A stretch of 26,944 nt of DNA from a virus, in the IMG/VR virus record IMGVR_UViG_3300018080_003262, positions 1-26,944 of that record; one strand, given 5' to 3'. The position numbers and the translations under genes are program-made. This document shows positions 3,861 through 22,472 of the stretch, piece after piece (the first letter of the stretch is position 1; every line of letters begins with the position of its first letter). Under the pieces are notes generated by a model that worked only from the letters and a program-made list of their open reading frames with translations, did no database searches and was not told the origin of the DNA.

Positions 3861-4888
3861 AGCTCGTCCCACATTGACAGTTTTTCAACATGCGCCTTCA
3901 GTTCCCTGATCTCCCTGTCCTTGCTCTCGATACCCCTGCAGGCAACATCAAGGTCTGCCTTCAGCTTCTCCACCTTTCGAACCAGACCCATGCGGTGCCG
4001 GTCGTGGCCGGGTGGAACCCAGCCGTCCTTCAACTGGTCAACACGTTTTGCAAAGATGGTATGGATGTCCGAATCAAAGGAATAAAACAGGCGCGTGGCC
4101 CGCACCCATCTGGGAAGCTGGAGGACCACACGGTCGCGGTCATGGACGTATTCGGTTATTACAAACCCAAAGCCCTGTGTATCCTGTCCCCAGATGGCCA
4201 TCATCTCAGGCTTGCGGCCAATCTCCATATTCGTATCAGGCTCTTCATCTCCGTTCCACAGTGGAGACTGAATAAAATGCATGGTCATTGCCCAGCTTGT
4301 AATCTCCCCCGGATTCATGTCATGGTAGACAACGTGCCAGCCACTGTCCTTTGTCATGGCCCCACAGCCCATCCATGGCGGAGGCATGTCGCCGGATGGA
4401 TCTCCATAGTTTAGAAACTGTGGGGACGGGACACTTATTTCGATCCCGCTTTCGGCGGTAAACTGAACACTGGTTGTTTCCATGGCGTCAGCCTTCGTTG
4501 CTGCTTCATGTGCCGCTTCCGCAACCTTCACTTCCAGTCCTTCAGTGGTATCCACCCTCGTCCAGTTGTTTCTTTCAACACAAACAAAACTATCTCCTTT
4601 GACACTGGCAAAGTCACCGGGCGCACCCGGCGGAAGATCTCCAATCCTGTTAAAGGCCCCAAGAAATCTCGTGCCGGTGGAAACGGACGGGGACACGGGC
4701 GGAAGCAGGGCCTCGGCATCCTTTGGAAGCTCCTTTCTGTCAAAGCTCACCCACTCCCTGTCTGCCCTGTAAAGATAAACCCTGTGGTCGTTGTCCCAGG
4801 TAAGGGCAAGGGCTCCCGGCTCCGGTCTGGAAGCCAGGATCATTTCCTCCTCCTGGTATCGCCCCACATATTTCAGCTTCATGCTCAT
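3857..4888 (-). CDS. Hypothetical 343-residue protein, C-terminal coiled coil
   Basis: The N-terminal ~100 residues look beta-rich (MKLKYVGRYQEEEMILASRP; VYLYRADREWVSFDRKE), the centre has a Pro/Trp-rich section (DPSGDMPPPWMGCGAMTKDS), and the last ~60 residues (VRKVEKLKADLDVACRG; REIRELKAHVEKL) form a probable coiled coil. It begins in an ATGA overlap with the VWA-protein gene, so its product may be made in step with that complex. No recognised family. Confidence 0.85.
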   Translation of the reverse strand: MSMKLKYVGRYQEEEMILASRPEPGALALTWDNDHRVYLYRADREWVSFDRKELPKDAEALLPPVSPSVSTGTRFLGAFNRIGDLPPGAPGDFASVKGDSFVCVERNNWTRVDTTEGLEVKVAEAAHEAATKADAMETTSVQFTAESGIEISVPSPQFLNYGDPSGDMPPPWMGCGAMTKDSGWHVVYHDMNPGEITSWAMTMHFIQSPLWNGDEEPDTNMEIGRKPEMMAIWGQDTQGFGFVITEYVHDRDRVVLQLPRWVRATRLFYSFDSDIHTIFAKRVDQLKDGWVPPGHDRHRMGLVRKVEKLKADLDVACRGIESKDREIRELKAHVEKLSMWDEL

Positions 4889-6999
4889 CCCGCCCTCGCT
4901 ATTATCCGTGCCAGCTTGCCCATCACTTTTCTGGGAAGCTCCGCAATGTTGTTTATCACTACATACTCAGGATAAAATTCCCTTACATGGTGGTCCATGA
5001 TTCCGATGCCGACCACTTCTATCCCGGCCTTGATTATCTTTCTCACGGCGCGGTAAAGGTCACCGTGAAGGATCTGGTATCGACGCTCGCTTGTTGCGGG
5101 GTGGCCATCGCTCAACACAAGCATGATTTTTCTTTTCTGCTTCTGCTCACTCAGCCGGTTGGCTGCCCACTTCACAGCGTCACCGTCCGGGTTTTGATAG
5201 CCCGACTTGATGTTTACGAGCCCGTTCAGCTTTGCCGAATCAAAGCGCTTGAAAACCATCAGTTCAAGCCGCTCCTGGTATCTGGCGAATCTGGAAAGGT
5301 CGCCACCGTGGTCCAGTGACCACCGGGCCATTCTCTGATCCGGTACCGAATGGAAGCCGGTTATTTCGAATGGTATCTGTAGCTGGGTGAGCGCCTCGGC
5401 TATGGCTATCGCGGTAAGCCTTGCAGTTTCAATCTTGTCCCCGCTCATGGAGCCGGAAAGGTCTATCAGGATCTCCACGGCCACGTTCGTCGTTTCGGTG
5501 CGCCTTTGCTCCTTGAAGGGCGTGCGGTAGTTGGGGTTTGTAAACATTCTGTTCAGCGACCGCCCGTTTATCATTCCGCGCTCGCGCTCGGTGCGCCAGT
5601 GAACATTCTCCTGGACCTTCAGTGTCTTCTCCAGCCAGTGCTTTATGGATGAAACGTGTTTGTTTATTTCAGCCTTCAGCTTGTTGTATTTGCGCGGGTC
5701 ACCCTTGCCGGTGACATCCATCTCCTTGTCAAAACGCGTGGTCGATACCAGATAGGGCTTGCTCGACCTGCCCCTGTCCACAATTGGGGCTGCGCCGTGT
5801 CTGCCTCTTTTCAGGCTTGCAGGCCCGTCTCCGGGTCTTGCCATCCCAGCATCCACACCATCCGGCTCGACACCTGTGGGATGCTCTTCGCAGAACTTTT
5901 CGATGTTGCGCCTTATCATGTCGTCCACGGTAAAGTTGGTTTCATCCCAGCGCTTGTCCTTGTTGTCGTTGATTACTTCATCACCGCGCTTGTCCCTGGG
6001 TGGTCTAGGTCCGCGATCATCTGATCCAGTGCCGTCTCCCTTTCCATCCTTGTCAGCGCCTCCCTCATCGCCTTCTCCCTCGCTTCCCGTCTTGCCTTCT
6101 GATCCCGACGCTTCTGTCTTTTCTTCGCCTTCGCCAGCGCCCTTCTCCTCTTCGCTCCCACTGCCACCTCCTGTCATTGTGTCGTCGCTCTTTTCGGTTT
6201 TGTTTTTCTCGCCAGTGCCAGAGCCGCCCTTGCCCTTCGAACCAGATCCTTCAGCTTCCTCTTCCTCTCCACCCTTGCCCTTGCTTGTGCCTTCCGAACC
6301 CTCTTCCTTTTCACTGCCCTCTCCCCCTTCTCCGGATTCCCCGGACTCACCGCCCTTGCCGTGCTCGTTTTTTCTGTCCTTGCAGTCGCCCGAACAATCC
6401 TCCTCCTCATTGTCCACGTAATCTATCACGGCGCGGGTTATGTCCTCGGTCACCCTTCGAAGCTCGTCGGTGCTTTTACAGTCGTTCAGCTTTGCGACAT
6501 GGGTTTCAATCCTGTCCATCATTACCATTACGTTTTTGTCTTCGATGTTCCACGGCTCGCCGGACATGCGCCCCTCGATTTCAAAAATAAGCTGGACCGG
6601 CCATGGGTACTTTTCAACACCGTTGTCCCTGATTCCCTTTTTCAGCTTTTCGTTCAGCGGCTTCAGGTTGTAGTGGCAGCCTGGAAATTCCTTGACGATC
6701 TCGCGCTCGATCCTCACATCCTCAAGCGCGTTTAAAAGATTCTTGTGGAAGGCAGCCCCGCGTCCCCTGATCAGCTTGTCAAACTGATTGAAACACGAAT
6801 ACCGGCAGTGGCCGACCTCATGGTCCAGAAAGCCGTGCATGTCTTCCATAAGCTCTGGTGTCAATTCCGTCGTGGCGGGGAGGTATATTGTCTTGCCGTC
6901 CGTCTTCGCCCCACTCCCCTGGAAGACCACTTCTATGTCATATTGTGCCGCAATGATCCTGCCTATCTTTTCAAGGCCTGTTTCAAATATTCTTTTCAT
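4885..6999 (-). CDS. CobT/NorD-like protein: HExxH domain, acidic linker, VWA
   Basis: A 704-residue protein. The N-terminal domain has HEVGH at 60-64 followed by NALEDVRIE at 90-98, the zinc-metallopeptidase-like HExxH...NxxED pattern seen in CobT/NorD-type VWA proteins. Residues ~205-345 are a Gly/Ser/Glu/Lys-rich acidic linker. The C-terminal VWA domain carries the MIDAS motif DLSGSMS (513-519), with later acidic positions in NPDGD and LSDGH. Family knowledge: such proteins work with MoxR/CobS AAA+ ATPases, in metal insertion (CobNST) or in remodelling (NorQ/NorD). The gene starts in a TAATG overlap with exactly such an ATPase gene. No cobalamin genes are nearby, so a chelatase role is unlikely; a phage-specific remodelling or proteolytic machine is the inference. 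Confidence 0.9.
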   Translation of the reverse strand: MKRIFETGLEKIGRIIAAQYDIEVVFQGSGAKTDGKTIYLPATTELTPELMEDMHGFLDHEVGHCRYSCFNQFDKLIRGRGAAFHKNLLNALEDVRIEREIVKEFPGCHYNLKPLNEKLKKGIRDNGVEKYPWPVQLIFEIEGRMSGEPWNIEDKNVMVMMDRIETHVAKLNDCKSTDELRRVTEDITRAVIDYVDNEEEDCSGDCKDRKNEHGKGGESGESGEGGEGSEKEEGSEGTSKGKGGEEEEAEGSGSKGKGGSGTGEKNKTEKSDDTMTGGGSGSEEEKGAGEGEEKTEASGSEGKTGSEGEGDEGGADKDGKGDGTGSDDRGPRPPRDKRGDEVINDNKDKRWDETNFTVDDMIRRNIEKFCEEHPTGVEPDGVDAGMARPGDGPASLKRGRHGAAPIVDRGRSSKPYLVSTTRFDKEMDVTGKGDPRKYNKLKAEINKHVSSIKHWLEKTLKVQENVHWRTERERGMINGRSLNRMFTNPNYRTPFKEQRRTETTNVAVEILIDLSGSMSGDKIETARLTAIAIAEALTQLQIPFEITGFHSVPDQRMARWSLDHGGDLSRFARYQERLELMVFKRFDSAKLNGLVNIKSGYQNPDGDAVKWAANRLSEQKQKRKIMLVLSDGHPATSERRYQILHGDLYRAVRKIIKAGIEVVGIGIMDHHVREFYPEYVVINNIAELPRKVMGKLARIIARAG

Positions 7000-8120
7000 T
7001 AGCTTCTCTCCTGTCCAAAAAGAACCCGCTTGATGATTCCCTCGATGGCCATCTTGTCCTCACGGCTCACCTTTGAAAAGATGGTCGATTCGGCAGCCTT
7101 CAGTGGAGCGTGCTTCTTCTTGTCGCGGTGGCGTACTATCATTTCAGCCCAATCCATGAGCCGCCTGGTTGAGAATGTTGACGCGACCGTTTCCTCTGCA
7201 AAAGCCTTTCTTACCATGGTCGCAACCTTGACCAGTTCGCTGGCCACCTTTTCAGTCATGCGCGGAACCGATCCGGAGACAACCTTGGCTTCGGTTTTCT
7301 GATCAAGGTAGTCGACCACGTAAACCTTCCACCGGTCCAGGAAAGCCTCGTTCATTATGTTTGTGCCCTGGTAGAGCCCACGGAATTCGGCCATCACACC
7401 TACAGCGTTGGCGGTAGCCATGATTCTGAAATCCTTGTGCGGCTCGACTATCTCGTGCCCCTTCTCCTTCAGGGTAAGGCACCCACCCGGCTCAAGAACC
7501 GAATTCAAAACCGAAAGGATCGCAGCGTCGGCAAAATCCAGTTCGTCGATAACCAGCCAGAGCCCGTGTCTCATGCAGTAGGGAAGTATGCCGTCCACCC
7601 ATTCCATTGAGCCGCCCTTCACAACCCATGTCCCTGTGAAGTCTGCGATGGTGGTTTGATGGTTCATGTTGGCCCGCATGAGCGGCTGGCCGATCCGTGC
7701 AGCAAGCTGGAAAAAGCAGGAGGTTTTTCCAGTGCCCGTGTGGCCTATCAAAAACACTGGTTTTGGATGTGGCGTGCTCTGGGTGTCCAGAATCACATCC
7801 TTGGTGAAGTCCTGAAAAACATAGTGCTCGTTTTTCTTCGGGATGTATCTTTTCAGTTCATCGGGGCATGACCGGATTGCCATCTCAGTCCCGGCGATCA
7901 TTACATTTCCTTTTTCATCTATCACAGCCTTGTCCCCCAAATATGCTTCCTGAAGATCGGGATGGACGATACTGTCCAGCCCGCCGTGCTGTTCCGCGTA
8001 TTCCTCAACGGTGATTTCCGGGTGGGCTTCGTCGATGTGGTGCATGAGGTTTCCACACTCATGTCCACACACCGTGCCGTCCTTCCCTATCACCTGACAA
8101 GTGAGCTTTCCCTTTTTCAT
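6999..8120 (-). CDS. MoxR/CobS-type AAA+ ATPase with N-terminal Cys/His finger
   Basis: A 373-residue protein. Residues 8-33 (C8, C18, C22, H27/H28, H33, then a VEEYAEQHGG helix) resemble a MucR/Ros-like zinc finger. The AAA+ core has Walker A GHTGTGKTS (126-134), Walker B LWLVIDELD (187-195) and sensor ATAN (235-238), with the 'NSVLEPGG' and 'FLDRW' features of MoxR/CobS enzymes. It should be an oligomeric ATPase that acts on or through the VWA partner encoded next. The ATGA overlap upstream and TAATG overlap downstream point to a fixed stoichiometric unit with the coiled-coil protein at 8117-8398. Confidence 0.92.
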   Translation of the reverse strand: MKKGKLTCQVIGKDGTVCGHECGNLMHHIDEAHPEITVEEYAEQHGGLDSIVHPDLQEAYLGDKAVIDEKGNVMIAGTEMAIRSCPDELKRYIPKKNEHYVFQDFTKDVILDTQSTPHPKPVFLIGHTGTGKTSCFFQLAARIGQPLMRANMNHQTTIADFTGTWVVKGGSMEWVDGILPYCMRHGLWLVIDELDFADAAILSVLNSVLEPGGCLTLKEKGHEIVEPHKDFRIMATANAVGVMAEFRGLYQGTNIMNEAFLDRWKVYVVDYLDQKTEAKVVSGSVPRMTEKVASELVKVATMVRKAFAEETVASTFSTRRLMDWAEMIVRHRDKKKHAPLKAAESTIFSKVSREDKMAIEGIIKRVLFGQERS

Positions 8121-8876: not shown

Positions 8877-9725
8877 CTATGCCACCTCCTTCTCACTTTC
8901 CATTTCGACCTTCAGGCATTCCATCGCCGTGTTGCGGTGGATCTCAAGGATCGTTTCGGTGTTACTGTATCCGCCGGAAAGGTTCCACGCCACCGGAATT
9001 CCCATCTTGTGCAGCGTCTGAAAAACTATCCTGTCACGCTCCTTCATTTCCTCAGTGGTCATCCACCCGCCAAGCGGATCGGAGACATGCGGGTCGGCTC
9101 CAGCCTGGTAGAGAACCAGATCGCAGCCCTTGAAGCGGTCCATGATTATCTCGGGAAGCCGTCTCAAAAATATCTTTGCATCGCTTCTCATTCCATAGAT
9201 GTCACCGCTGGAATAGTGCTCGATCCATTTTATTTTCAGCTTCCGGATTATATCCACTGTCCCGTTTCCATAGTGGCAGTCGCAGTCCAGAATCCCCACC
9301 TTCCGCACCAGCTTTTCAGAATAAAGCCTCTTGGCCGCGATCAGAAGGCCGTTGAACGTGCAGAAGCCTCCACCGTGGGACCAGCAGGCGTGATGAAATC
9401 CACTGCAAAGGGCCGCAACCATTGTCCTGCCCTTTATGGCGGCCTTGGCAGCCCAGTACATTGCACCGGATGTGTACTGAAGCGTCCGTGCGATCTCCTC
9501 CTTCCGGTTTCCAAATCCATTGGGTGCCTTGCAGTCCAGCACACCGTTAACATACTTCATGTCGTGGACCCGGTAAAAATCATTGCGTCCCAGCGGGATC
9601 GGTGACACCACTTCGATGTCAAGGCCGTGCTTCCGCCAGTCCTCGACTACCATTTTCGGCTTGGCCGGACTTGGGCTCATCCCGCCCGAATCGGCCACCA
9701 TCTTGCTTGTGTAATAAACCTTCAT
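8877..9725 (-). CDS. Histone-deacetylase-fold amidohydrolase (HDAC/AcuC/APAH)
   Basis: A 282-residue protein with the full HDAC-superfamily signature: catalytic His pair in SGFHHA (H111, H112), the zinc-binding loop LDCDCHYGNGT (D149, H151), the third zinc ligand in YQAGADPHVSDPLGG (D211), and the transition-state Tyr in NLSGGY (Y253). The N-terminus (YYTSKMVADSGGMSPSP) also matches the family. Length is near the lower end for bacterial members. Known relatives remove acetyl groups from lysines, acetylpolyamines or acetoin-pathway proteins. The substrate cannot be read from the sequence; deacetylation of host or phage proteins or of polyamines are the options. Starts in an ATGA overlap with the preceding gene. 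Confidence 0.93.
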   Translation of the reverse strand: MKVYYTSKMVADSGGMSPSPAKPKMVVEDWRKHGLDIEVVSPIPLGRNDFYRVHDMKYVNGVLDCKAPNGFGNRKEEIARTLQYTSGAMYWAAKAAIKGRTMVAALCSGFHHACWSHGGGFCTFNGLLIAAKRLYSEKLVRKVGILDCDCHYGNGTVDIIRKLKIKWIEHYSSGDIYGMRSDAKIFLRRLPEIIMDRFKGCDLVLYQAGADPHVSDPLGGWMTTEEMKERDRIVFQTLHKMGIPVAWNLSGGYSNTETILEIHRNTAMECLKVEMESEKEVA

Positions 9726-10023: not shown

Positions 10024-10352
10024 TTCGCCAGTTCTTCCATGGCTTCCTCGAATGTTGTTGTCTTGTGGGTTTTCGATGCCGGTTTCTTTTTGGTTTTGGG
10101 TGCCGGTTTCTTTTTGGTTTTGGGTGCCGGTCTGCCGCCTCCGCCTTCAGGCCCGCACTTGCTGCTGACCTTGATGTAGCCCTTTGCTATCTTGTCCTCC
10201 GCCCGGTCAAACGCCTCGGCCTCGCTTCTGGTCTGCTCGCCGCCGATCCTGCCTATGCGGCCCCAGCGGATTATTGCCATCCCGCGACCGGCTGGCTCTA
10301 TCTCCCAGTACTTGTTTGACCTGCCTTCTGTGAATTCATAGCGTCCGTACAT
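10014..10352 (-). CDS. WGR-domain protein with Lys-rich tail
   Basis: A 112-residue protein. Residues 1-60 form a WGR domain: YWEIEPAGRGMAIIRWGRIG with the signature W30-G31-R32 and a following IGRIGG, then EAEAFDRAEDKIAKGY. WGR domains occur in PARP1-3, where they bind DNA ends, and in bacterial MolR-like and stand-alone proteins. Residues ~76-100 are a Lys/Pro repeat (PAPKTKKK twice) that would bind nucleic acid, and a short helical end follows. I chose the ATG at 10352 (CGGAGGG upstream); the longer frame runs back into the upstream gene. Its place near DNA ligase fits a DNA-end or nick-binding role, which is inference. Confidence 0.85.
   Translation of the reverse strand: MYGRYEFTEGRSNKYWEIEPAGRGMAIIRWGRIGRIGGEQTRSEAEAFDRAEDKIAKGYIKVSSKCGPEGGGGRPAPKTKKKPAPKTKKKPASKTHKTTTFEEAMEELAKVD
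10078..10125. repeat. Two perfect 24-base tandem repeats in the WGR gene
   Basis: Two identical 24-base units (10078-10101 and 10102-10125) encode the repeated Lys/Pro segment of the WGR protein tail. Copy number could vary between relatives. Confidence 0.85.
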
Positions 10353-10353
10353 A

Positions 10354-10761
10354 TCAGTCGCCCTCCGTTGATGTTGCCTCGAGCGCCTTCCTGTAAAGCC
10401 AGTCGACGCCCTTTTCAAAGTCTTCGTTTTCAAAGGTTTCGTTCCCCAGAAACCCGCTTGTGGAATCGCCGAGTGCAAAGGTCCAGCCGCCGTCCCAGAA
10501 TGATTCTATCCGGCAGTTCATTTCCATGTCGTAGATGGCCTTCAGCTTTGCCATCGGCCCGTCAAATTCGATCAGCCCGTTTTTGACCGCGCAATTGTCG
10601 CAGAATTCAGAAACCACGTTGGGCCTCTTCTCCACAAGGTAGCCGTAGGCCCGCACCTTGTTTCCAGTTCCACATCCCGAACAGCGTCCAATACAGTCGG
10701 TGATGAAATTTTCGGTGGCTCTCTCCAGCCACGGTTTTGGTTTTAGATCCGGTGTGCTCAT
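10354..10761 (-). CDS. Hypothetical Cys4 zinc-ribbon-like protein
   Basis: A 135-residue protein with C27-x2-C30 and C54-x2-C57 flanking a short beta-like segment, a zinc-ribbon arrangement (C23 is also nearby). The remaining ~75 residues are acidic and Trp-containing with no known motif. It overlaps the ligase gene by 4 bases and the WGR gene follows directly, so the three are probably made together. A nucleic-acid-related role is inferred from the ribbon and context. Confidence 0.82.
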   Translation of the reverse strand: MSTPDLKPKPWLERATENFITDCIGRCSGCGTGNKVRAYGYLVEKRPNVVSEFCDNCAVKNGLIEFDGPMAKLKAIYDMEMNCRIESFWDGGWTFALGDSTSGFLGNETFENEDFEKGVDWLYRKALEATSTEGD

Positions 10762-11723
10762 CGTATTCTCCTTCTTCTTGATTTTGCCTTCTTCTGTTCC
10801 TTCATGTCGTCCTTGACCTTCTGCAGCGTGCAGTCCTTCGCGTCCATGCCGTCCTCGCGGAAGCGGTAAAATGTGGGGTGGCGAAGCCGGTCCGTTTTGG
10901 AAAGCTCCTGTGCATATACGTCCACCACACGCCCGATGTATTTCTCTGGCTCCTCGGTCATGTCCTCGCGTATGCTGTCCACAAAGCCGGAAGCGTACCC
11001 GATGGCCTTGGGCTTGCCGTCATCGTCGATCACTGAAACCTCCATCGCGCCAACCATGCCCGTGTACTTTCCATTGCCGGGTTTGAAGCCGCTGATGAAG
11101 ACCGAAATGTCGTAGCTCTTCTTCATTTTCGACCAGCCCGATCCATAGCCCTGCCTCACATCCTTCACGACCAGCCCCTCGCCGCCCCTGCCCACTACCT
11201 TGAGAAAGAGCTCTTCGACCTTGTCGTGCGGATACTGTGTGAGGGTTTTGATGTTTGGATTTTTCATCCGCTTTACAACCTCGACCAGAATCTTCCGGCG
11301 CTGTGTAAGCGGAAGGCCCCTTATGTCCTTGCCCTTGAAAACCGGGATGTCCCAAACATAGTATTTGATCCAGCCGATCTCCTTCTGCCGCTCGATGGCC
11401 TTGGCGGGCGAGGCTCCCATTATGGAAGTCGTGGTCGAAATATCGGTGTGGAACATCTCGCCGTCCAGTTCACAGCCCTCAAGGCCGGGATATTCGACGC
11501 CCGTGATATGCGGCACGTTGGCCGTCTTGTCCACATTGATCCTGTCCACCTTGGATTTATGCCGTGAGAGCAGCGTATTGCCCTCTGTGCGGCCCGTAGG
11601 GTCGTGGGCAAGGTGAAGAGTATACCTCGCCCCGTCCAGCTTCAGTTCGCCGATGTGGTGCTTTGACAGGGTCTCGGGCAGCTTGGCCGTGCAGCGGGCC
11701 GGTTGTACGTAAAGCGCGTCCAT
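10758..11723 (-). CDS. ATP-dependent DNA ligase
   Basis: A 321-residue protein with the nucleotidyltransferase motifs in order: motif I ELKLDGAR with the adenylated K28, motif III ELDGEMF (85-91), IIIa YYVWDIP (121-127), motif IV GEGLVVKD (181-188) and motif V WSKMKK (197-202). The C-terminal ~115 residues fit an OB-fold, and the end is very basic (KAKSRRRRIR). It seals nicks with ATP during phage replication or repair. Length is typical of small phage ligases. The ATG at 11723 has GGGGGAGGCAAAA upstream. Confidence 0.95.
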   Translation of the reverse strand: MDALYVQPARCTAKLPETLSKHHIGELKLDGARYTLHLAHDPTGRTEGNTLLSRHKSKVDRINVDKTANVPHITGVEYPGLEGCELDGEMFHTDISTTTSIMGASPAKAIERQKEIGWIKYYVWDIPVFKGKDIRGLPLTQRRKILVEVVKRMKNPNIKTLTQYPHDKVEELFLKVVGRGGEGLVVKDVRQGYGSGWSKMKKSYDISVFISGFKPGNGKYTGMVGAMEVSVIDDDGKPKAIGYASGFVDSIREDMTEEPEKYIGRVVDVYAQELSKTDRLRHPTFYRFREDGMDAKDCTLQKVKDDMKEQKKAKSRRRRIR

Positions 11724-13192: not shown

Positions 13193-13704
13193 TCGATATA
13201 GATTGCAGGAAGGAGGGTTGACCGGCTGTAGGCCGTGGTTATCCCGTTCCTGGTGTTCATCGTCCATGCGTTTATGAATTGAAATTCGGTGGCGGTCCAG
13301 ATTGTGTTCCTTGCCGACACCTCGTCCAGAAGGCCCTGATCGTAAAGCGATACCGCCTCGGCGCGTGTGAGAAGCCTGAAGCCGTCAGGCGCTTCGGCGA
13401 CCGCGTCCTCCCAGCATTTCCGTTCGGGCCTGTAGATTACCAGCGCGGATTCATCGGCGTAGGCCGTGGTCTGTTCCACCTCCACCTCCACATCCACATC
13501 AACGTCCACTTCGACCCTTGTCACATCTTCCGCGTTTTCATCGACCACCTCGGCGGAGCGCTCTTCGCTGGCCCTGTTTTCTTCGGCCTCTTCAGCCTTT
13601 TCGGCTTCCAGTCTCGCCTTCTCCTTCGCCTCCGCCTCGGCAAGCTGCTCTTCATACCCGCAGCCCCAGATTCCCAGAATGATTGTTAGTAGAATGATCC
13701 TCAT
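13180..13704 (-). CDS. Lipoprotein with Lcl/DUF1566-like C-terminal domain
   Basis: A 174-residue protein. Residues 1-15 form a lipoprotein signal peptide ending GIWGC. Residues ~20-60 are a Glu/Ala/Lys helix, ~66-77 an unusual alternating VDVDVDVEVEVE strand, and ~97-174 match the Lcl (DUF1566, C-type-lectin-like) pattern: CWEDAVAEAPDGFRLLTRAE, then TIWTATEFQFINAWTMNTRN. That fold displays variable ligand-binding surfaces. The protein should be anchored in the host envelope with its lectin-like head exposed. No reverse transcriptase or template repeat is in the window to make it a diversity-generating target. The domain call is by pattern and moderately sure. Confidence 0.75.
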   Translation of the reverse strand: MRIILLTIILGIWGCGYEEQLAEAEAKEKARLEAEKAEEAEENRASEERSAEVVDENAEDVTRVEVDVDVDVEVEVEQTTAYADESALVIYRPERKCWEDAVAEAPDGFRLLTRAEAVSLYDQGLLDEVSARNTIWTATEFQFINAWTMNTRNGITTAYSRSTLLPAIYIEETE

Positions 13705-15317: not shown

Positions 15318-15421
15318 GCCACGCACCAGCCGAATAAAAAGGCCGCCGCAGCGACCGTGCCGAGAATGACCATGTGGAGTGAAACGTAAAAGCGGTACCA
15401 CCGTTTCTCAATCGAATCCAT
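15314..15421 (-). CDS. Tiny 35-residue transmembrane protein
   Basis: The ATG at 15421 opens a 35-residue frame: MDSIEKRWYRFYVSLHMVIL followed by GTVAAAAFLFGWCVA. A basic amphipathic start is followed by one hydrophobic span, a typical small membrane protein. It overlaps the 3' end of the primase gene by 14 bases and the next membrane-protein gene by 4 (ATGA), the same coupling seen throughout the window. It fills what would otherwise be an unusual gap. Confidence 0.65.
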   Translation of the reverse strand: MDSIEKRWYRFYVSLHMVILGTVAAAAFLFGWCVA

Positions 15422-16457
15422 CCGTGAGAAGTTCCTCGAGTTCGCCCATGGCGTAGGATCCAGCGTCTCTTCCATCTGGAAGCTTGATACACCGGACATC
15501 GAAGAAGGACTTGAGCATGGAGATAGCCGCATCGACTGAACACGGTTTCTTGATCTTGCCTTTGTTTCTGCCCTTGACGTAGCGTTTTTCATCTGAATAA
15601 GCATCCTCATCCCATAAGATTACGATATTTCTCGCCTTCGTCTTCGTGAGCCATTCGACCTGTGCGGAGTGCAGTTTTTTTCCGTTTGTAGCTACAGCGT
15701 TGGCTCCTGCCTTGCAGACGTCGACGAACCCTTCACACAATATGATTTCACCGTGATTCTTCGCGGTGTCGTAGTTGTAGAGAACCGAGCGTGCAGAAAC
15801 GCCCTTGGGATTGAGAACCTTCTTGTAAAGGTTGGTTCCATAATGGTCATGCAGGTTCCCGAGAACATCGCGGGCCTGCCAGAAAACAAGACGCTCCTCC
15901 ATGTAGGTTGGAACTATTATCCGGTGCTGCGTGTAGCCCACCTCCGAGAACCCCCAGCCGTTTTCAATGGCGTATTCCAGGGGAATGTCCCGGCCCTCAA
16001 GGTAGCGGTGGAATATTGTGTCCGTGTCCTCCGAATCGGAGAAGAGCCTGAAGCCGTGCGGGAACTCCACCTCGCGCAGCGTTTCAGCTTCATCATCATT
16101 GTCGTATTCGGGATGGTGCAGGGGGAAGTTGAGCATCTCAAGCGATCCCGGCTTGCGGCCTTCAAGAATCCTGATGGCCCTTTCGACATCGCACTTTGAA
16201 AATATCTGGACCAGCCGCTCAAGCGGCCCCGACCAGTCGCAGTTGTAGCAGGTAAACATCCCCACCCTTGGGTTGACCCACAAGCGCCTCTTTGTGTCGC
16301 TCCGCTTCTCCCCGCGAAGGCGGCACATGGGGCAGTTCATTGCATATTCAACATGGTCGTCGGAGTCGTGCTTCAGATAATAGACACCGTTCTCCTTGAG
16401 GTAGTGTCCAAGATCAAAATTCGGAAACTTGCTGTATTCGGGCCTCCCCGCTCCCAT
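15408..16457 (-). CDS. DnaG-type primase (zinc ribbon plus TOPRIM)
   Basis: A 349-residue protein. The N-terminal zinc ribbon has C42-x2-C45 and C70-x2-C73 (NCPMC; FTCYNCDWSG). The central part matches the primase fold (GYTQHRIIVPTYMEERLVFW), and the TOPRIM core has the catalytic Glu in ILCEGFVDV (E242) and the DxD in LWDEDAYSD (D283, D285). It should make RNA primers for phage replication with the DnaB-like helicase encoded just upstream. I chose the ATG at 16457 with TGGAG upstream; a TTG at 16475 also is in frame. Shorter than bacterial DnaG, as usual in phages, with no obvious helicase-binding C-terminal domain. Confidence 0.93.
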   Translation of the reverse strand: MGAGRPEYSKFPNFDLGHYLKENGVYYLKHDSDDHVEYAMNCPMCRLRGEKRSDTKRRLWVNPRVGMFTCYNCDWSGPLERLVQIFSKCDVERAIRILEGRKPGSLEMLNFPLHHPEYDNDDEAETLREVEFPHGFRLFSDSEDTDTIFHRYLEGRDIPLEYAIENGWGFSEVGYTQHRIIVPTYMEERLVFWQARDVLGNLHDHYGTNLYKKVLNPKGVSARSVLYNYDTAKNHGEIILCEGFVDVCKAGANAVATNGKKLHSAQVEWLTKTKARNIVILWDEDAYSDEKRYVKGRNKGKIKKPCSVDAAISMLKSFFDVRCIKLPDGRDAGSYAMGELEELLTDGFD

Positions 16458-16478
16458 TCGATGCTCCAGTACCAATAC

Positions 16479-17849
16479 CTATCGTTTCTTGCCACCCTTG
16501 CGCTTGAGCCATTCCGGTAGTTCGTGATGTAGTTTGTAGCCGTACCTACGAGTATAGAATATCATTCTCGAAAAATCAGTAACAAGTCTTAACGTAAGAT
16601 CGCATTCATTACTGCGGTATAGGTCCGCATGCGCCCTCATGATTCCGGTGCGCTTCTCCCGTGGCGTCTGGTTCAGCGTCATTATGAAGTCCACAATCCT
16701 GACCTTGTCGTAGCTTTCGGCGACCGACCGGGCACGCAGGAGGGTTTCCTTTTCAGGGTCGTCCTTTGGACGGGTGGACTGTGAAGCCGTCCATGTTGCG
16801 TGCTTCTGCATGTAGGAAAGCCGCTTCAGGTCGCGGAACACCTCCCGCTGGTCATGGCGGGGATCTCCAACCGCCTCGCGTGGCTTCAGAAGGTCCGCAT
16901 AGTCGACCACAAGCATGTCCAGCTTCCTGCCCTTCCTTTTCAGTTCTGTCACCTTCCCTTCAAGGTCGGCTGTGGAATATTCCCAGTGCTGGTTGAACGG
17001 GATCATGTGAAGACGGTTCATGTAGCGCTTGCCGAGCATGTCCAGTCTTCTCTCCTCTTCGGCTGTGAGCTTTCCGGTCATTATCCTCTTGGCCGGAATA
17101 CCGGAGAGGCGTGACTGGTATCTGATTACCGACTGTTCGGTTGAGCCTTCAAGAATAACGTGCCCCACATGGCCCGACAGTGTCGTAAGGCACATGAATC
17201 CCATGTGGGTGAGCGCAGTGGACTTTCCGAGCTTCGGTGGAGCGATGATGCAGCCCATCTCACCCTCCAGCCGGGACAGCCCTCCCAGAAGAATCCGGTC
17301 CAGTGCCGGGATGCCTGTGGGTATCTTGTCGTGTGAAATGGCCCTCTGGGCCATAAACTGCTGCCTGAAGGCCTCAAAGTCCTCAATGGCCAGTATCTGG
17401 TCGTCGTGGAATGAGACGCCATGAAGGGCGTTTATCTTCTCCAGAACGTAGGTGTAGGCATCGTCCACCTCGCCCGCATTGTAGAGTGTCTGCCCGTGCT
17501 GGAAGAGCTCTGCGAATGCCGTCCGCTTGGCAAAGTCCGTAAGCTGCTCCTTCAGGAAGTCCATGCTTCCCGGCGAGAGGGCGTATATCTTTTTGGCGAA
17601 GGACTTGAAGAGCCGCCTCTTGTGCTTCTCCTCCAGCTTCAGCGCGTCCTCTATTTCCACGTATTCAGGGACCATCCCCTCGCGCCTGTACTTCTCCTCT
17701 ATCTGGTTGAAAAGCCACTTGTGGGTGTCCGAATGAAGATACTCGGCCTCGACATATCTTACACACCTGTCTGCGAATGAGACGTCACGCAGCATCAGCG
17801 CAAGCATCGATTCCTGGAAGCTGGGTCCGAATGAAAAGGGTACACTCAT
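16479..17849 (-). CDS. DnaB-like replicative helicase
   Basis: A 456-residue protein. Residues ~10-135 fit the helical N-terminal domain (SFQESMLALMLRDVSFADRC; EAEYLHSDTHKWLF). The RecA-like domain has Walker A APPKLGKST (203-211), Walker B LDMLVVDYADLL with D316, and the downstream SQSTRP, DFIMTLNQ segments of DnaB-type enzymes. As a hexamer it should unwind DNA at the fork together with the primase. The end is very basic (WLKRKGGKKR). I chose the ATG at 17849, in an ATGA overlap and with GAAGGAGAAG upstream. An alternative start at 17876 lies within the upstream gene. Confidence 0.93.
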   Translation of the reverse strand: MSVPFSFGPSFQESMLALMLRDVSFADRCVRYVEAEYLHSDTHKWLFNQIEEKYRREGMVPEYVEIEDALKLEEKHKRRLFKSFAKKIYALSPGSMDFLKEQLTDFAKRTAFAELFQHGQTLYNAGEVDDAYTYVLEKINALHGVSFHDDQILAIEDFEAFRQQFMAQRAISHDKIPTGIPALDRILLGGLSRLEGEMGCIIAPPKLGKSTALTHMGFMCLTTLSGHVGHVILEGSTEQSVIRYQSRLSGIPAKRIMTGKLTAEEERRLDMLGKRYMNRLHMIPFNQHWEYSTADLEGKVTELKRKGRKLDMLVVDYADLLKPREAVGDPRHDQREVFRDLKRLSYMQKHATWTASQSTRPKDDPEKETLLRARSVAESYDKVRIVDFIMTLNQTPREKRTGIMRAHADLYRSNECDLTLRLVTDFSRMIFYTRRYGYKLHHELPEWLKRKGGKKR

Positions 17850-18037
17850 TTCTTCTCCTTCAGCTTGCTCCGCCATCGCTGGTAATATGTATCTGTGCTG
17901 TTGATCTTGATAACACCCTCGGTCCCGTATGGATGCCTGACAAAATACTTGTCTTTACCAACATGAAGAATTTGGATTATATCCTTTGGATTGCCTACAA
18001 GATGAATCAGTTGCCCCGCCTTGAATCTTGGTTTCAT
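17846..18037 (-). CDS. Hypothetical 63-residue basic protein
   Basis: Begins MKPRFKAGQLIHLVGNPKDI and looks like a small beta-barrel (SH3/KOW-like: 'fkaGqlIhlvGnp..iiqIlhvgkdkYfV'), ending in a basic tail. The ATG at 18037 overlaps the upstream stop (ATGA). The ribosome binding site is the GGGAGGAG that also encodes the WEE of the upstream protein's C-terminus. Possibly nucleic-acid binding, by resemblance only. Confidence 0.75.
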   Translation of the reverse strand: MKPRFKAGQLIHLVGNPKDIIQILHVGKDKYFVRHPYGTEGVIKINSTDTYYQRWRSKLKEKK

Positions 18038-19147: not shown

Positions 19148-19658
19148 GCCACTGCTCCTCGTATTCATCCTGGTCCAGATCGAATTCCAGATCCCCTATA
19201 AACCTGTCGTAAAACTCAATCCCGTTGGAAAGGCAAAGCTGGACCGTTGGTGCGTGTCTTCTCTTCTCGGTGGCCTTCCACGTACAGCCGAGGAAGGTGT
19301 CCAGATGGACGCCTTTCTCATCGGCCACCTCAATGATGCGCTCCATGCAGGATATCTGGCTCCGGTTTTTCGGCCACCAGTTGTTGTCAAAGTCGCGGTA
19401 GTATTGAGCCCACTTGTTCCAATACTCCACAAACGGCTTCAGCTTCTTCAGCCGCTCGTCGGTCTCCCACTCGCGCAGGATCCTCTTCAGGCTTTTGCTT
19501 TCGGACTTCGGCTTTGACTTCAGGAGACTGCCCGTTACAACCTTCTCCGCAATCCTGCGGTTTCGAAGGGCTACGGCCTCCTGTGCCGAGCCTAGATTGC
19601 CAATGCCTCGTGGCTCACATCTTTTAATGTAAGTTTTTGCCGTATGCGGTGCAAACAT
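19140..19658 (-). CDS. Hypothetical 172-residue basic protein
   Basis: A basic helical protein (SKPKSESKSLKRILREWETD, Trp-rich centre YWNKWAQYYRDFDNNWWPKN) with an acidic C-terminus (LEFDLDQDEYEEQ). The RSQISCMERIIEVADEKGVH segment could be a small helix-turn-helix-like unit. The only ATG (19658) forces a 67-base overlap with the sigma-like gene, larger than any other in the window; no other standard start codon lies between that overlap and the conserved part. Unknown function. Confidence 0.72.
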   Translation of the reverse strand: MFAPHTAKTYIKRCEPRGIGNLGSAQEAVALRNRRIAEKVVTGSLLKSKPKSESKSLKRILREWETDERLKKLKPFVEYWNKWAQYYRDFDNNWWPKNRSQISCMERIIEVADEKGVHLDTFLGCTWKATEKRRHAPTVQLCLSNGIEFYDRFIGDLEFDLDQDEYEEQWHG

Positions 19659-20107
19659 CCCACTACCTCGCAGCTTGCCTTCCTTTTGGAAATTGCCTTG
19701 TCAATTGACCGTGCCTTCACTATCTCGTGCAGTTTGAATCCTGCATACACCTTACGAAGAATGTCCGTTTCGTTCCGGTCAAGATAGGTGTCGAGTGATA
19801 TGACGGGGCAGGAGGCCGAGGATGTGTCTATGTCCTCAACCGCTTCAAGGTGCGGGCTGGACTTCTTGTTTGCCGACCTGTCCAGGTCTATGAGCCGGTT
19901 TGTCATGCACCGGACCATGTAGGTGGACAGCTTTGCCTTTCCGTTCTTGTGGTGGGTTACTATGGCCCGCCATGCGGCGACCCGCGCTTCGTTCAGGAAG
20001 TCGTCGAAGTCGGCAGCGTGCCTTGCCTTGTTGAACTTGCTTGTGATCCGTGATGTGGTGGACCTGATTAGACCTTCGTTCTCCCGTAGAATACTGTCAA
20101 CATTCAT
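19592..20107 (-). CDS. Sigma-70-family RNA polymerase sigma factor
   Basis: A 171-residue protein. Residues 32-77 match sigma region 2: FDDFLNEARVAAWRAIVTHH, then KLSTYMVRCMTNRLIDLDR, corresponding to the core-binding helix and the 'fStY....iRnrliD' -10-recognition helix. The C-terminal ~60 residues (ETDILRKVYAGFKLHEIVKA) are in the place of region 4, but the helix-turn-helix match is weak. It should redirect host RNA polymerase to phage promoters; the three 62-base elements are candidate targets, an inference. The gene lies between the SF2 helicase and the run of small genes. Confidence 0.85.
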   Translation of the reverse strand: MNVDSILRENEGLIRSTTSRITSKFNKARHAADFDDFLNEARVAAWRAIVTHHKNGKAKLSTYMVRCMTNRLIDLDRSANKKSSPHLEAVEDIDTSSASCPVISLDTYLDRNETDILRKVYAGFKLHEIVKARSIDKAISKRKASCEVVGCLHRIRQKLTLKDVSHEALAI

Positions 20108-20143: not shown

Positions 20144-21508
20144 TCAGATTCGTTCGATACTCAGTTTGAATGCTCTTTCGGATTTGTATTGGTTTATCCG
20201 TGAAACCGAGTGTCGCACAAGATGCCGGTGACCTACAATGAGAAAATCAAATACTTCTGCAAACTCTTTTCCGGGCGCTGGACGGAGGGCACGACCGATT
20301 CCCTGGCGTGTTTCTATCTCACCTTCCTGAAGCCTGGCGTTTATGAAGACGTCGATGCCGGGGACATCCTGTCCTTCTCCGAAGATGCTCGTGGCAATGA
20401 GACACCGTACCGTCTTCTCCTTGAACTTGCGTTTCACCTCCTTTCTATGGGCGACCGGATCGTCGCCGTTCAAATACACCGCCCTGTCGCCCATCTGGCC
20501 AGCGAGCATGCGGCCCGCCTCCTTCCGGCGCACAAGGATCAAAACCTGCTTTCCTTCGAAGACCTGCTTCTCGGCCAGGTCCGCGATGAACCTGTTGAAG
20601 CCGGGGTCTGTTACAAGGGCCGTGTAGGCGTCCTTGTAGTTGTATTTGGAGTAGCCGCGAAGCTGCCACCTGAAGATCTTTATCTTCGGCGGGACCAGCC
20701 AGCCGTCTTCAATAAGGTCGCTGGCCGACTTCTGGTAAATGATGTTGGAAAGGACGCCCATCATGGTCATCTCCCTTCCATCGGCCCGCAGGAATGTTCC
20801 CGTATAGCCGTACCGCCAGTAGGCCTCGCTCGCCAGCGCATTCATCTTGATGTAGCTTTTGGCAGCCGAATGATGGAATTCGTCCGTTATCAGCATCTTG
20901 AAGCGGTCATAGTATTTGGCGTCCCGCCTTGCCAGCGTCCCGATGTTTGAAACCACTATGGGGCTGGCCGACTCAATCTTCTTCGAAACCGCGTCCCTGC
21001 CGAACCATGTTCTGAAGTCGTCATGCAACTGTTCCCTGATCCCAACGTCCGGCGCACAAACAAGCGTCTGAACGCCTCTGTTGGCGATTACACGGGCCAT
21101 AATGTAGCCTTTGCCTCCACCCGTCCCGATCACGGTAACGCCCCTGACGTTTGATTCTGTGGCTCCTATGGCCTCTTCCTGGTAATCCCTCTCAGTGAAA
21201 CCGTCAGGCGGGCTGAAATTGTAGTCCACGGTGTTGGATTCCGGAGGTATCCGCAGGTCTTCGATCTGATATTCCACTTCCTCGCGCTCAAGTAATCCCT
21301 CAACCAGACCGAGAAGTCCTGTAGGGAAATATCCCCGCTTCAGCAGCTTCACCCTCCCGTCCCAGTTCTTCGCAATATGGGGGGGGAGGTATCTCTTCTG
21401 ATGCTCCGCACCAGGCGGTATGTAGGAAAGCAGGTCCGATACCGCCCTCTCCACATCCGGTCTGCAGAGCACTTTCGTCCTGTGGTTTTCAATCTTCAGT
21501 CGTATCAT
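20144..21508 (-). CDS. SF2 helicase, UvsW/XPB-like
   Basis: A 454-residue protein. Residues ~35-75 (IAKNWDGRVKLLKRGYFPTG) match the N-terminal substrate-binding part of UvsW-like helicases. Motif I is GTGGGKG (128-134), Q-like motif ERDYQEEAI before it, motif II TDEFHH (208-213), motif III TGTFL, and in the second RecA domain SIFGEGQDVPG and motif VI QGIGRALRP. T4 UvsW remodels branched DNA and unwinds R-loops, controlling origin-driven replication; a similar role beside a putative origin is plausible. Motif I has Gly where GKT or GKS is usual. The ATG at 21508 follows AGGAAG; an in-frame start at 21523 is less likely. Confidence 0.92.
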   Translation of the reverse strand: MIRLKIENHRTKVLCRPDVERAVSDLLSYIPPGAEHQKRYLPPHIAKNWDGRVKLLKRGYFPTGLLGLVEGLLEREEVEYQIEDLRIPPESNTVDYNFSPPDGFTERDYQEEAIGATESNVRGVTVIGTGGGKGYIMARVIANRGVQTLVCAPDVGIREQLHDDFRTWFGRDAVSKKIESASPIVVSNIGTLARRDAKYYDRFKMLITDEFHHSAAKSYIKMNALASEAYWRYGYTGTFLRADGREMTMMGVLSNIIYQKSASDLIEDGWLVPPKIKIFRWQLRGYSKYNYKDAYTALVTDPGFNRFIADLAEKQVFEGKQVLILVRRKEAGRMLAGQMGDRAVYLNGDDPVAHRKEVKRKFKEKTVRCLIATSIFGEGQDVPGIDVFINARLQEGEIETRQGIGRALRPAPGKEFAEVFDFLIVGHRHLVRHSVSRINQYKSERAFKLSIERI

Positions 21509-21537
21509 TGTCGCTTCCTGCAAATTTTGGTTTGGAG

Positions 21538-21566
21538 GTGATAAGCCCTGCGGGCCAAGGTGTCAA
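21538..21566 (-). promoter_or_regulatory. Sigma70-like promoter for the replication genes
   Basis: On the minus strand TTGACA (21561-21566) is followed after 17 bases by TATCAC (21538-21543): a perfect -35 box, ideal spacing and a 4/6 -10 box. Transcription would begin about 30 bases before the SF2 helicase start. The host sigma70 could therefore start the replication operon before the phage sigma is made. Confidence 0.6.
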
Positions 21567-21570
21567 ACGG

Positions 21571-21690
21571 TTTTTTACTGTTTAATTATTAGGCACGACG
21601 GCATCACCCTGGATGTGGAGGCAAGCCCCCGGAACACCCCTACATCCAGCATTATGCACATGTTGTCCACAGGGATCTGTGGAAAAGAAA
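21571..21690. other. Candidate replication origin with DnaA-box-like sites
   Basis: Three 9-mers match or nearly match the DnaA box TT(A/T)TNCACA within 35 bases: TTATGCACA (21652-21660, perfect), TTGTCCACA (21663-21671, one mismatch) and TTTTCCACA on the minus strand (21678-21686). Nearby are an AT-rich tract (21571-21590, a possible unwinding element), an inverted repeat CTGGATGT/ACATCCAG (21609-21616/21642-21649), and a hairpin TCCACAG-GGAT-CTGTGGA (21666-21683). The stretch lies in a gene-free gap between the structural and replication units and beside the helicase gene, as expected of an origin. Confidence 0.6.
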
Positions 21691-21719
21691 AATGCCGGTC
21701 CCGCCTTTGGAACCGGCAC
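21681..21719 (-). terminator. Intrinsic terminator of the tail/lysis unit
   Basis: On the minus strand a GC-rich stem (arms TGCCGGT and ACCGGCA, 21693-21699/21712-21718, with two more pairs inside) is followed by TTTTTCTTTT. This is a textbook rho-independent terminator about 30 bases after the last lysis-region gene. It isolates the tail/lysis transcription unit from the origin and replication genes. Confidence 0.85.
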
Positions 21720-21748
21720 TCTCGAAAGGAAATTACTATGGAACCCCT

Positions 21749-22039
21749 TTATTTTAACATCTTCGACCGCCCATAACCAAGGTTACCGGCCACCTGTCCC
21801 AAAACCTTTACCAGCAGCGAGAACCACTTTGCCAGCCGGTTGTCCCACTTGTTCTCCGTACCCCTTGCAAGCCGGACGAACAGTTCAGACAGGCCGCGAA
21901 GGCCGACAAGAACCACGGGATAGAAAAGCCAGAACCACGGGTTTGTCAGTGTCTCCGGCAGTTGCGGCACCGCAACTGCATACTCCGGCTGAAGGATCAC
22001 CGCCCACAGAATGAACTGGTTAAGCAATCGAGTAAGCAT
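21749..22039 (-). CDS. Membrane protein beside endolysin, holin candidate
   Basis: A 96-residue protein with two hydrophobic stretches (LLNQFILWAVILQ; WFWLFYPVVLVGL), then a basic amphipathic part (SELFVRLARGTENKWDNRLA). The ATG at 22039 follows GGGGAGAACCAC and overlaps the endolysin gene by 20 bases. Size, membrane segments, charged tail and position fit a holin, but no holin family is recognised. The 17-mer palindrome shared with 564-580 lies inside it. It is the last gene of the unit before the terminator. Confidence 0.75.
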   Translation of the reverse strand: MLTRLLNQFILWAVILQPEYAVAVPQLPETLTNPWFWLFYPVVLVGLRGLSELFVRLARGTENKWDNRLAKWFSLLVKVLGQVAGNLGYGRSKMLK

Positions 22040-22472
22040 GTGGTTCTCCCCGCATGAACAGTTGTTTCTCAGCCTGTCTCCGCTTTACAAGTCCCTCCAG
22101 CACCACACCCCCGGCCTTGTTCCACCTTTGGAACTCTTCTGCCGCCAGATGCCGCTGACCCCTGTTCAAGTGTTTCAGAAGCGTGCTGTTCTTGAAGGCC
22201 CTTACTCCGACATTGAAGACGAAGCTGACAAGCGCATCTATTTCACACTGCCAAAGGGGTATGATGACATGCTTGCCGACCGCCCGCTCGTATCGTAGAA
22301 GATCCGACCGGAGCATCTCCTCGGCACGGACTTCGGAAATCTTCATACCCTTCATCACACCCTGCGTATGGCCGTAGCCGATGGTCCACACGTTGCCCGG
22401 ACACAGATAGGCTTCAAGCCTGCAGCCCTCGAAATGCTTTATAAGCTCGATGCCGTCGTGTCCGATTCTCAC
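22020..22472 (-). CDS. Endolysin, GH24 (T4-type) lysozyme
   Basis: A 150-residue muramidase. GIELIKHFEGCRLEAYLCPG then NVWTIGYGHT is the GH24 signature. The catalytic triad follows the E-x8-C-x5-T form: E15, C24 and T30, as in P1/P22-type lysozymes where Cys replaces the Asp of T4 lysozyme. It cleaves the N-acetylmuramic acid to N-acetylglucosamine bond in peptidoglycan. There is no signal peptide or SAR segment, so it needs a holin for export. The C-terminal ~100 residues (FVFNVGVRAFKNSTLLKHLN; LVKRRQAEKQLF) are also typical. Confidence 0.95.
   Translation of the reverse strand: MRIGHDGIELIKHFEGCRLEAYLCPGNVWTIGYGHTQGVMKGMKISEVRAEEMLRSDLLRYERAVGKHVIIPLWQCEIDALVSFVFNVGVRAFKNSTLLKHLNRGQRHLAAEEFQRWNKAGGVVLEGLVKRRQAEKQLFMRGEPHAYSIA

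Follow-up and report, generated by a model that had tools for sequence, protein, structure and literature searches.

A DnaA-box cluster and putative host-DnaA docking site at the head of a phage replication operon

Organization of the locus

The window analyzed here is the whole of a 26,944-base IMG/VR virus record (IMGVR_UViG_3300018080_003262), a fragment of a phage genome. Open reading frame calls placed nearly all likely genes of the window on the minus strand, running leftward from about 26.7 to 3.1 kb. A gap at 21509-21748 has a lysozyme and a small hydrophobic protein on one side, the latter giving no family match in protein family searches, and on the other a UvsW-type helicase, which is the first gene beside the gap as the sequence-only reading had it. 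The helicase heads a block containing a sigma-like factor, a DnaB-like helicase, a primase, a ligase, a histone-deacetylase (HDAC)-fold protein, CobS and CobT (Table 1). Along the direction of transcription the gap itself contains a strong terminator, then boxes 3, 2 and 1, and after these a GC-rich inverted repeat, an AT tract and the candidate promoter TTGACA-17-TATCAC. An Rfam search gave no match. We also observed a small WGR-domain protein (PF05406, 10014-10478, minus strand) with a 24-bp coding tandem repeat at 10061-10131.

Table 1. Features of the gap and of its flanking genes, with positions counted from the first base of the window.
Feature	Position	Strand	Description
Phage lysozyme/endolysin, upstream unit	22020..22472	-	PF00959 E 1.3e-47, phrog_7
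Small hydrophobic protein, holin candidate	21749..22039	-	last gene before gap; ORF, position only
Intrinsic terminator of lysis unit	21688..21723	-	15-bp stem, 6-nt loop, T-rich tail
Box 3, DnaA-box-like	21678-21686	-	TTTTCCACA, one letter off TTATCCACA; overlaps terminator T tail and dyad
Box 2	21663-21671	+	TTGTCCACA, one letter off TTATCCACA
Box 1	21652-21660	+	TTATGCACA, one letter off TTATCCACA
Double DnaA box (predicted)	21652..21671	+	TTATGCACA-TG-TTGTCCACA, 2-bp gap; top-scoring in window
Dyad joining boxes 2 and 3	21663..21686	.	TTGTCCACAG-GGAT-CTGTGGAAAA; 10-nt arms, 90%
GC-rich imperfect inverted repeat	21601..21657	.	arms 21601-21621/21637-21657, 76%
AT tract	21571..21592	.	directly upstream of -35 box; 77% AT in 30 bases
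Candidate promoter into replication operon	21538..21566	-	TTGACA-17-TATCAC; sequence letters only
UvsW-type superfamily 2 helicase	20147..21508	-	first replication-operon gene; phrog_16 E 1.5e-73; ResIII/Helicase_C
Sigma-70-like factor	19592..20107	-	PF04542 E 5.7e-7; TIGR02937 below cut-off
DnaB-like replicative helicase	16479..17876	-	PF03796, phrog_19 E 8e-50
DNA primase	15408..16475	-	phrog_47 E 3e-36
ATP-dependent DNA ligase	10758..11723	-	PF01068, phrog_114
Histone-deacetylase-fold protein	8877-9725	-	PF00850 E 2e-32
CobS-like AAA ATPase	6999..8120	-	phrog_249, AAA_5/CbbQ_C
CobT-like VWA protein	4885..6999	-	CobT_C E 3.7e-26

Transcription signals and inverted repeats in the gap

The hairpin that ends the lysis unit, already read as an intrinsic terminator from the letters, was borne out by its RNA fold (-24.2 kcal/mol, z -4.5); a simple scanner did not list it. 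The promoter letters reported ahead of the replication unit are likewise present on the minus strand, with the -35 box at 21561-21566 and the -10 box at 21538-21543 separated by 17 bp. The -10 box is weak (4/6), and the promoter is absent from the list of a consensus scanner. An AT-rich tract had been counted among the origin-like features of the gap. The tract is there, but equally or more AT-rich stretches occur in the window at 2.0, 3.0 and 14.9 kb, and it does not adjoin the boxes, lying about 60 bp from the nearest one with the GC-rich dyad in between. A promoter UP element belongs at about -40 to -61, and the position of the tract fits such an element, an unwinding element being the alternative.

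The inverted repeats noticed earlier in the gap were recovered, two in number. The GC-rich repeat folds as a single strand (RNA z -2.1/-2.6), while the dyad joining boxes 2 and 3 has the core TCCACAG-GGAT-CTGTGGA (as RNA, z -4.15). Two dyads with 21- and 10-nt arms upstream of a promoter could be an operator, bound by a phage repressor or another dyad-binding regulator that times the replication promoter. The letters, however, match specifically DnaA boxes with DnaA-like spacing, neither dyad is repeated elsewhere in the gap, and no regulator gene was identified beside it, leaving an operator as a very improbable explanation.

A second alternative would explain the whole gap as a plain border of two transcription units, with a terminator, hairpin arms that resemble boxes, a GC-rich inverted repeat and a promoter with an UP element. 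DnaA would have no role there, and a phage initiator would start replication elsewhere. The AT tract at about -40 to -61 agrees with this account.

DnaA boxes exceed chance and form a double box

The three DnaA-box-like 9-mers that the sequence-only reading reported within 35 bases hold in both letters and coordinates. Three one-mismatch boxes within 35 bases were reached in 0 of 2000 order-2 simulations, and two strict TTWTNCACA boxes within 35 bases in 0.1% of simulations. Other phage loci totalling 2.55 Mb contained 701 boxes, among which four pairs and no triples fell within 35 bases. The box cluster exceeds chance. It amounts to about two independent boxes among the three, because a single dyad has boxes 2 and 3 as its arms, and the T tail of the terminator supplies the TTTT of box 3. 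This double use of the letters, as hairpin arms and as terminator tail, is in keeping with a plain border. Box 1, on the other hand, lies outside the hairpin and exactly 2 bp from box 2, and the score of the resulting double box (15.2, the highest in the window, with a runner-up at 13.0) was matched by 0 of 200 shuffles, both of which argue against a border without DnaA.

In E. coli, ChIP-seq found that DnaA in vivo occupies mainly double boxes with a gap of 2 or 3 bp, and changed box spacing disrupts DnaA binding (PMC11317965). The 2-bp gap of the window pair is the spacing favored by E. coli DnaA. The double boxes at mutH/DARS2, polA, purH and mioC of E. coli are likewise tandem, 2 or 3 bp apart and placed in intergenic control regions (PMC11317965), whereas the predicted double box of the window is in a phage and has a third, inverted box. 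The box 2 sequence TTGTCCACA is a poorer DnaA box for some hosts. A TCCACA hexamer repeat at 13475-13509 was also considered as a set of DnaA boxes; it lies inside an open frame and was therefore taken as a coding repeat.

Host DnaA may act here solely as a switch that regulates the promoter of the replication operon; early phage expression would then follow host DnaA-ATP levels, and replication would begin at another site. In E. coli, double boxes occur at promoters of replication and nucleotide genes (PMC11317965), and nrdAB is regulated by DnaA (PMC8203912). Within the window the promoter lies directly between the boxes and the operon. A similar DnaA-box dyad, TTTTCCACAGCGATCTGTGGATAA, was the one match found in 85,000 genomes (about 0.5 expected by chance); it occurs in a Roseobacter contig (L177, 4664-4687) just upstream of a gene reading like a vitamin B12-dependent ribonucleotide reductase, a setting that would suit a switch. 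The boxes of the window are nevertheless about 85 bp upstream of the -35 box, farther than usual for direct activation or repression, and we consider a role limited to switching unlikely.

GC skew and search for a phage-encoded initiator

A GC-skew switch had been proposed as a check for an origin at this position, and none was found in the window. The skew stays negative across 21.5 kb, with all genes on one strand and only 5 kb of sequence to the right, which gives the check little power. The lack of a skew change in the window also agrees with a plain border. In the closest full-length relative (G001, see below), the cumulative GC-skew minimum at about 26 kb coincides with a DnaA-box array. 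The skew of that genome, however, tracks the coding strand throughout, including 0-9 kb, where fork direction predicts the opposite sign, and whole-genome skew was set aside as origin evidence on this account. Skew therefore neither supports nor refutes an origin in either sequence.

No Bac_DnaA, Bac_DnaA_C or Rep_3 genes were found in the window, itself a fragment, or in its relatives, and the initiator search gave a weak, sub-threshold IstB-like match in the phage nickie only. A repeat search found no iteron-like direct repeats in the gap (21509-21748). An iteron origin of the phage-plasmid P1/SSU5 type is thus not supported, given the lack of such repeats in the gap and of a Rep_3 match in this fragment or its relatives.

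Related phages and conservation of the boxes

Single-protein scans with the helicase (against IMG/VR and GTDB genomes) and with DnaB (against IMG/VR) returned no close relatives, and a broad UvsW profile picked up nothing but remote helicases. True relatives were found by a clade-specific helicase profile (A6), which recovered L377, L378, L380, L379 and L381 with UvsW amino acid identities of 44-50%, including 50% for L377, 49% for L378 and 46% for the 115-kb L379. The closest full-length relative is G001, the 110-kb record that contains L381; it keeps the ten-gene order UvsW-sigma-x-DnaB-primase-x-ligase-HDAC-CobS-CobT at 28-53% amino acid identity. The HDAC-fold protein is retained in both G001 and L379.

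The gap upstream of UvsW in G001 is 1.3 kb long, lies between a leftward block of 20 genes and a rightward block of 78, and carries GTTATCCACAAAGTTATCCACAAAGTTATCCACATATCCACA, in which TTATCCACA occurs three times with 3-bp gaps. This array holds the only exact TTATCCACA and the only strong double boxes of G001, and their placement near the same gene as in the window speaks against a plain border. Its position in a divergent gap is typical of origins too, which weakens the case for a DnaA switch alone. The G001 boxes point in the same direction as UvsW at a distance of 1.2 kb, whereas those of the window point the opposite way, 144 bp upstream of the UvsW start.

Conservation of the boxes in relatives, which the sequence-only reading had named as a check, was thus found upstream of UvsW in G001 (L381) and not in the other related records searched, which comprise the similarly close L377, L378 and L379 and 13 more. 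L377 and L378, nearer to the window than G001 by UvsW identity, have no boxes within 1.5 kb upstream of UvsW and do have a terminator before it, as a plain border would predict. L379 has no boxes upstream of UvsW and no good double box anywhere in its 115 kb, and none were found upstream of UvsW in L098/L099, L103 or L104. Whole-record searches of 15 related records (1.44 Mb in total, G001 included) found no double box of the G001 form in the other 14. Since not all relatives have boxes, and orientation and distance differ between the window and G001, the box neighborhood common to these two is apparently lineage-specific or convergent and not deeply conserved. With the evidence on both sides, we regard a plain border without DnaA as rather improbable.

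Similar gene order also drew attention to 110-kb phages, nickie and SSU5 among them. No boxes were found at the lysis/replication border in the whole nickie genome or in 50 kb of SSU5, and the only box pair in those 50 kb of SSU5 adjoins a gene annotated as a replication helicase. The module order tail fibre-lysis-DnaB-primase-ligase-CobT/CobS is common to the window, nickie and SSU5 (L102/L094, L096) at 25-30% amino acid identity, with the order of the CobS/CobT-like AAA-VWA pair of the window (4885-8120, minus strand) reversed relative to nickie and SSU5. Stenotrophomonas phage ANB28 shares the ligase and CobT/CobS with the window.

A model for the gap

We favor, with moderate confidence, a reading of the gap as a control region heading the replication operon, with a putative host-DnaA docking site that would serve as an origin or as an origin-activating promoter. 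The proposal that an origin-like region here recruits host DnaA is supported in part. Host DnaA probably binds the site, and recruitment is supported by the 2-bp double box, by the best double box of G001 near the same gene and by the over-representation of such boxes in viral contigs (see below). The favored reading also gains from the excess of the cluster over chance and from the search of the window and relatives that gave no Bac_DnaA or Rep_3 gene. The origin is unproven, because the window has no skew switch, the AT tract sits at the UP position behind the GC-rich dyad, and L377, L378 and L379 are without boxes upstream of UvsW; that the site marks a replication start is possible, and we propose it only tentatively.

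The terminator closes the lysis transcript and is followed by the double box and the inverted third box, and the candidate promoter, with its AT-rich tract at the UP-element position, precedes the helicase/DnaB/primase operon. In the proposed mechanism, two host DnaA molecules would bind the double box cooperatively, with the inverted box assisting. Bound DnaA would then either open the DNA there as an origin or switch on transcription across the region and so enable a replication start, the latter route being modelled on host DnaA action at ori-lambda. Phage DnaB and primase would take over after initiation.

Lambda has two DnaA-box-like sequences beside its replication-gene promoter that are footprinted by DnaA (PMC3985674 and references therein), and host DnaA stimulates transcriptional activation of its origin (PMC3985674). 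The window resembles pR/pO-ori-lambda in having predicted DnaA sites near a promoter of replication genes. Lambda, however, has an O initiator with iterons, whereas no iteron-like direct repeats were found in the gap, and the phage families are unrelated. P1- and F-type plasmid origins contain DnaA boxes, iterons and a Rep gene. The window shares with these and with bacterial oriC a DnaA-box cluster at a module border beside replication genes, that of G001 lying between divergent blocks, but no iterons or Rep_3 gene were found, the AT tract does not adjoin the boxes, and the skew lends no support. In the large Pseudomonas phage vB_PseuGesM_254, an AT region with DnaA boxes was predicted as the origin by Ori-Finder (PMC11512268); this is a different phage, and its origin is likewise a prediction only.

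A link to the UvsW-controlled origins of T4 had also been drawn, and it is weak. A UvsW-type helicase does adjoin the region, but as a neighbor only; T4 origins are described as R-loop origins in PMC3016281, and having this gene next door is not enough to class the region with them.

Large phages that encode a replisome are usually assumed to be independent of host DnaA. If a host-DnaA site heading the replication operon is confirmed, it would link phage replication with the cell cycle of the host and would provide a sequence handle for predicting phage origins.

Tandem DnaA boxes across viral contigs

IMG/VR was scanned for the pattern TTATNCACA-N0-6-TTNTCCACAG, with the second box reversed as a control. 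Tandem boxes were found in at least 120 contigs, against 24 for the reversed-box control in the whole collection. The gap was 2, 3 or 4 bp in 90 of the 94 matches listed, with 0-6 allowed. For 62 of the 80 contigs listed the boxes fell outside called genes, where random positions would give about 24, 12 of these 62 being at contig ends, and divergent gaps were over-represented among the matches listed (14 against 4 expected). The two box sequences of the window itself were observed with a 2-bp gap in 15 contigs and with a 1-bp gap in 32, the latter nearly all from one family with a multi-box array between terminase subunit genes. The genes nearest to the double boxes include not only replication-initiation genes but also terminase, so the presence of boxes is not by itself the mark of an origin. 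Tandem DnaA boxes in viral contigs recur, are mostly intergenic, are not always at replication genes, and look selected.

A broader reading, which we offer as speculative and rather doubtful, is that selected double DnaA boxes sit at late/early module borders in many tailed phages, large ones with their own DnaB and primase among them, and that these phages rely on host DnaA for starting or timing replication or module switching. The window and G001 would then be one such lineage and the terminase-array family of about 30 contigs another. The spacing rule (2-4 bp, mostly intergenic) makes origin prediction testable across IMG/VR.

In the terminase-array family the conserved array lies between the small and large terminase genes (e.g. 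L344 8641, L324 2945, L322 3164), with boxes that vary little or not at all, in contrast to some of the flanks. L197 (3518-3650), L178 (2660-2755) and L376 (3853) also have DnaA-box clusters, in each case directly upstream of the gene for the small terminase subunit, and in L197 eight boxes lie between a leftward TerS and a rightward CobS/CobT module.
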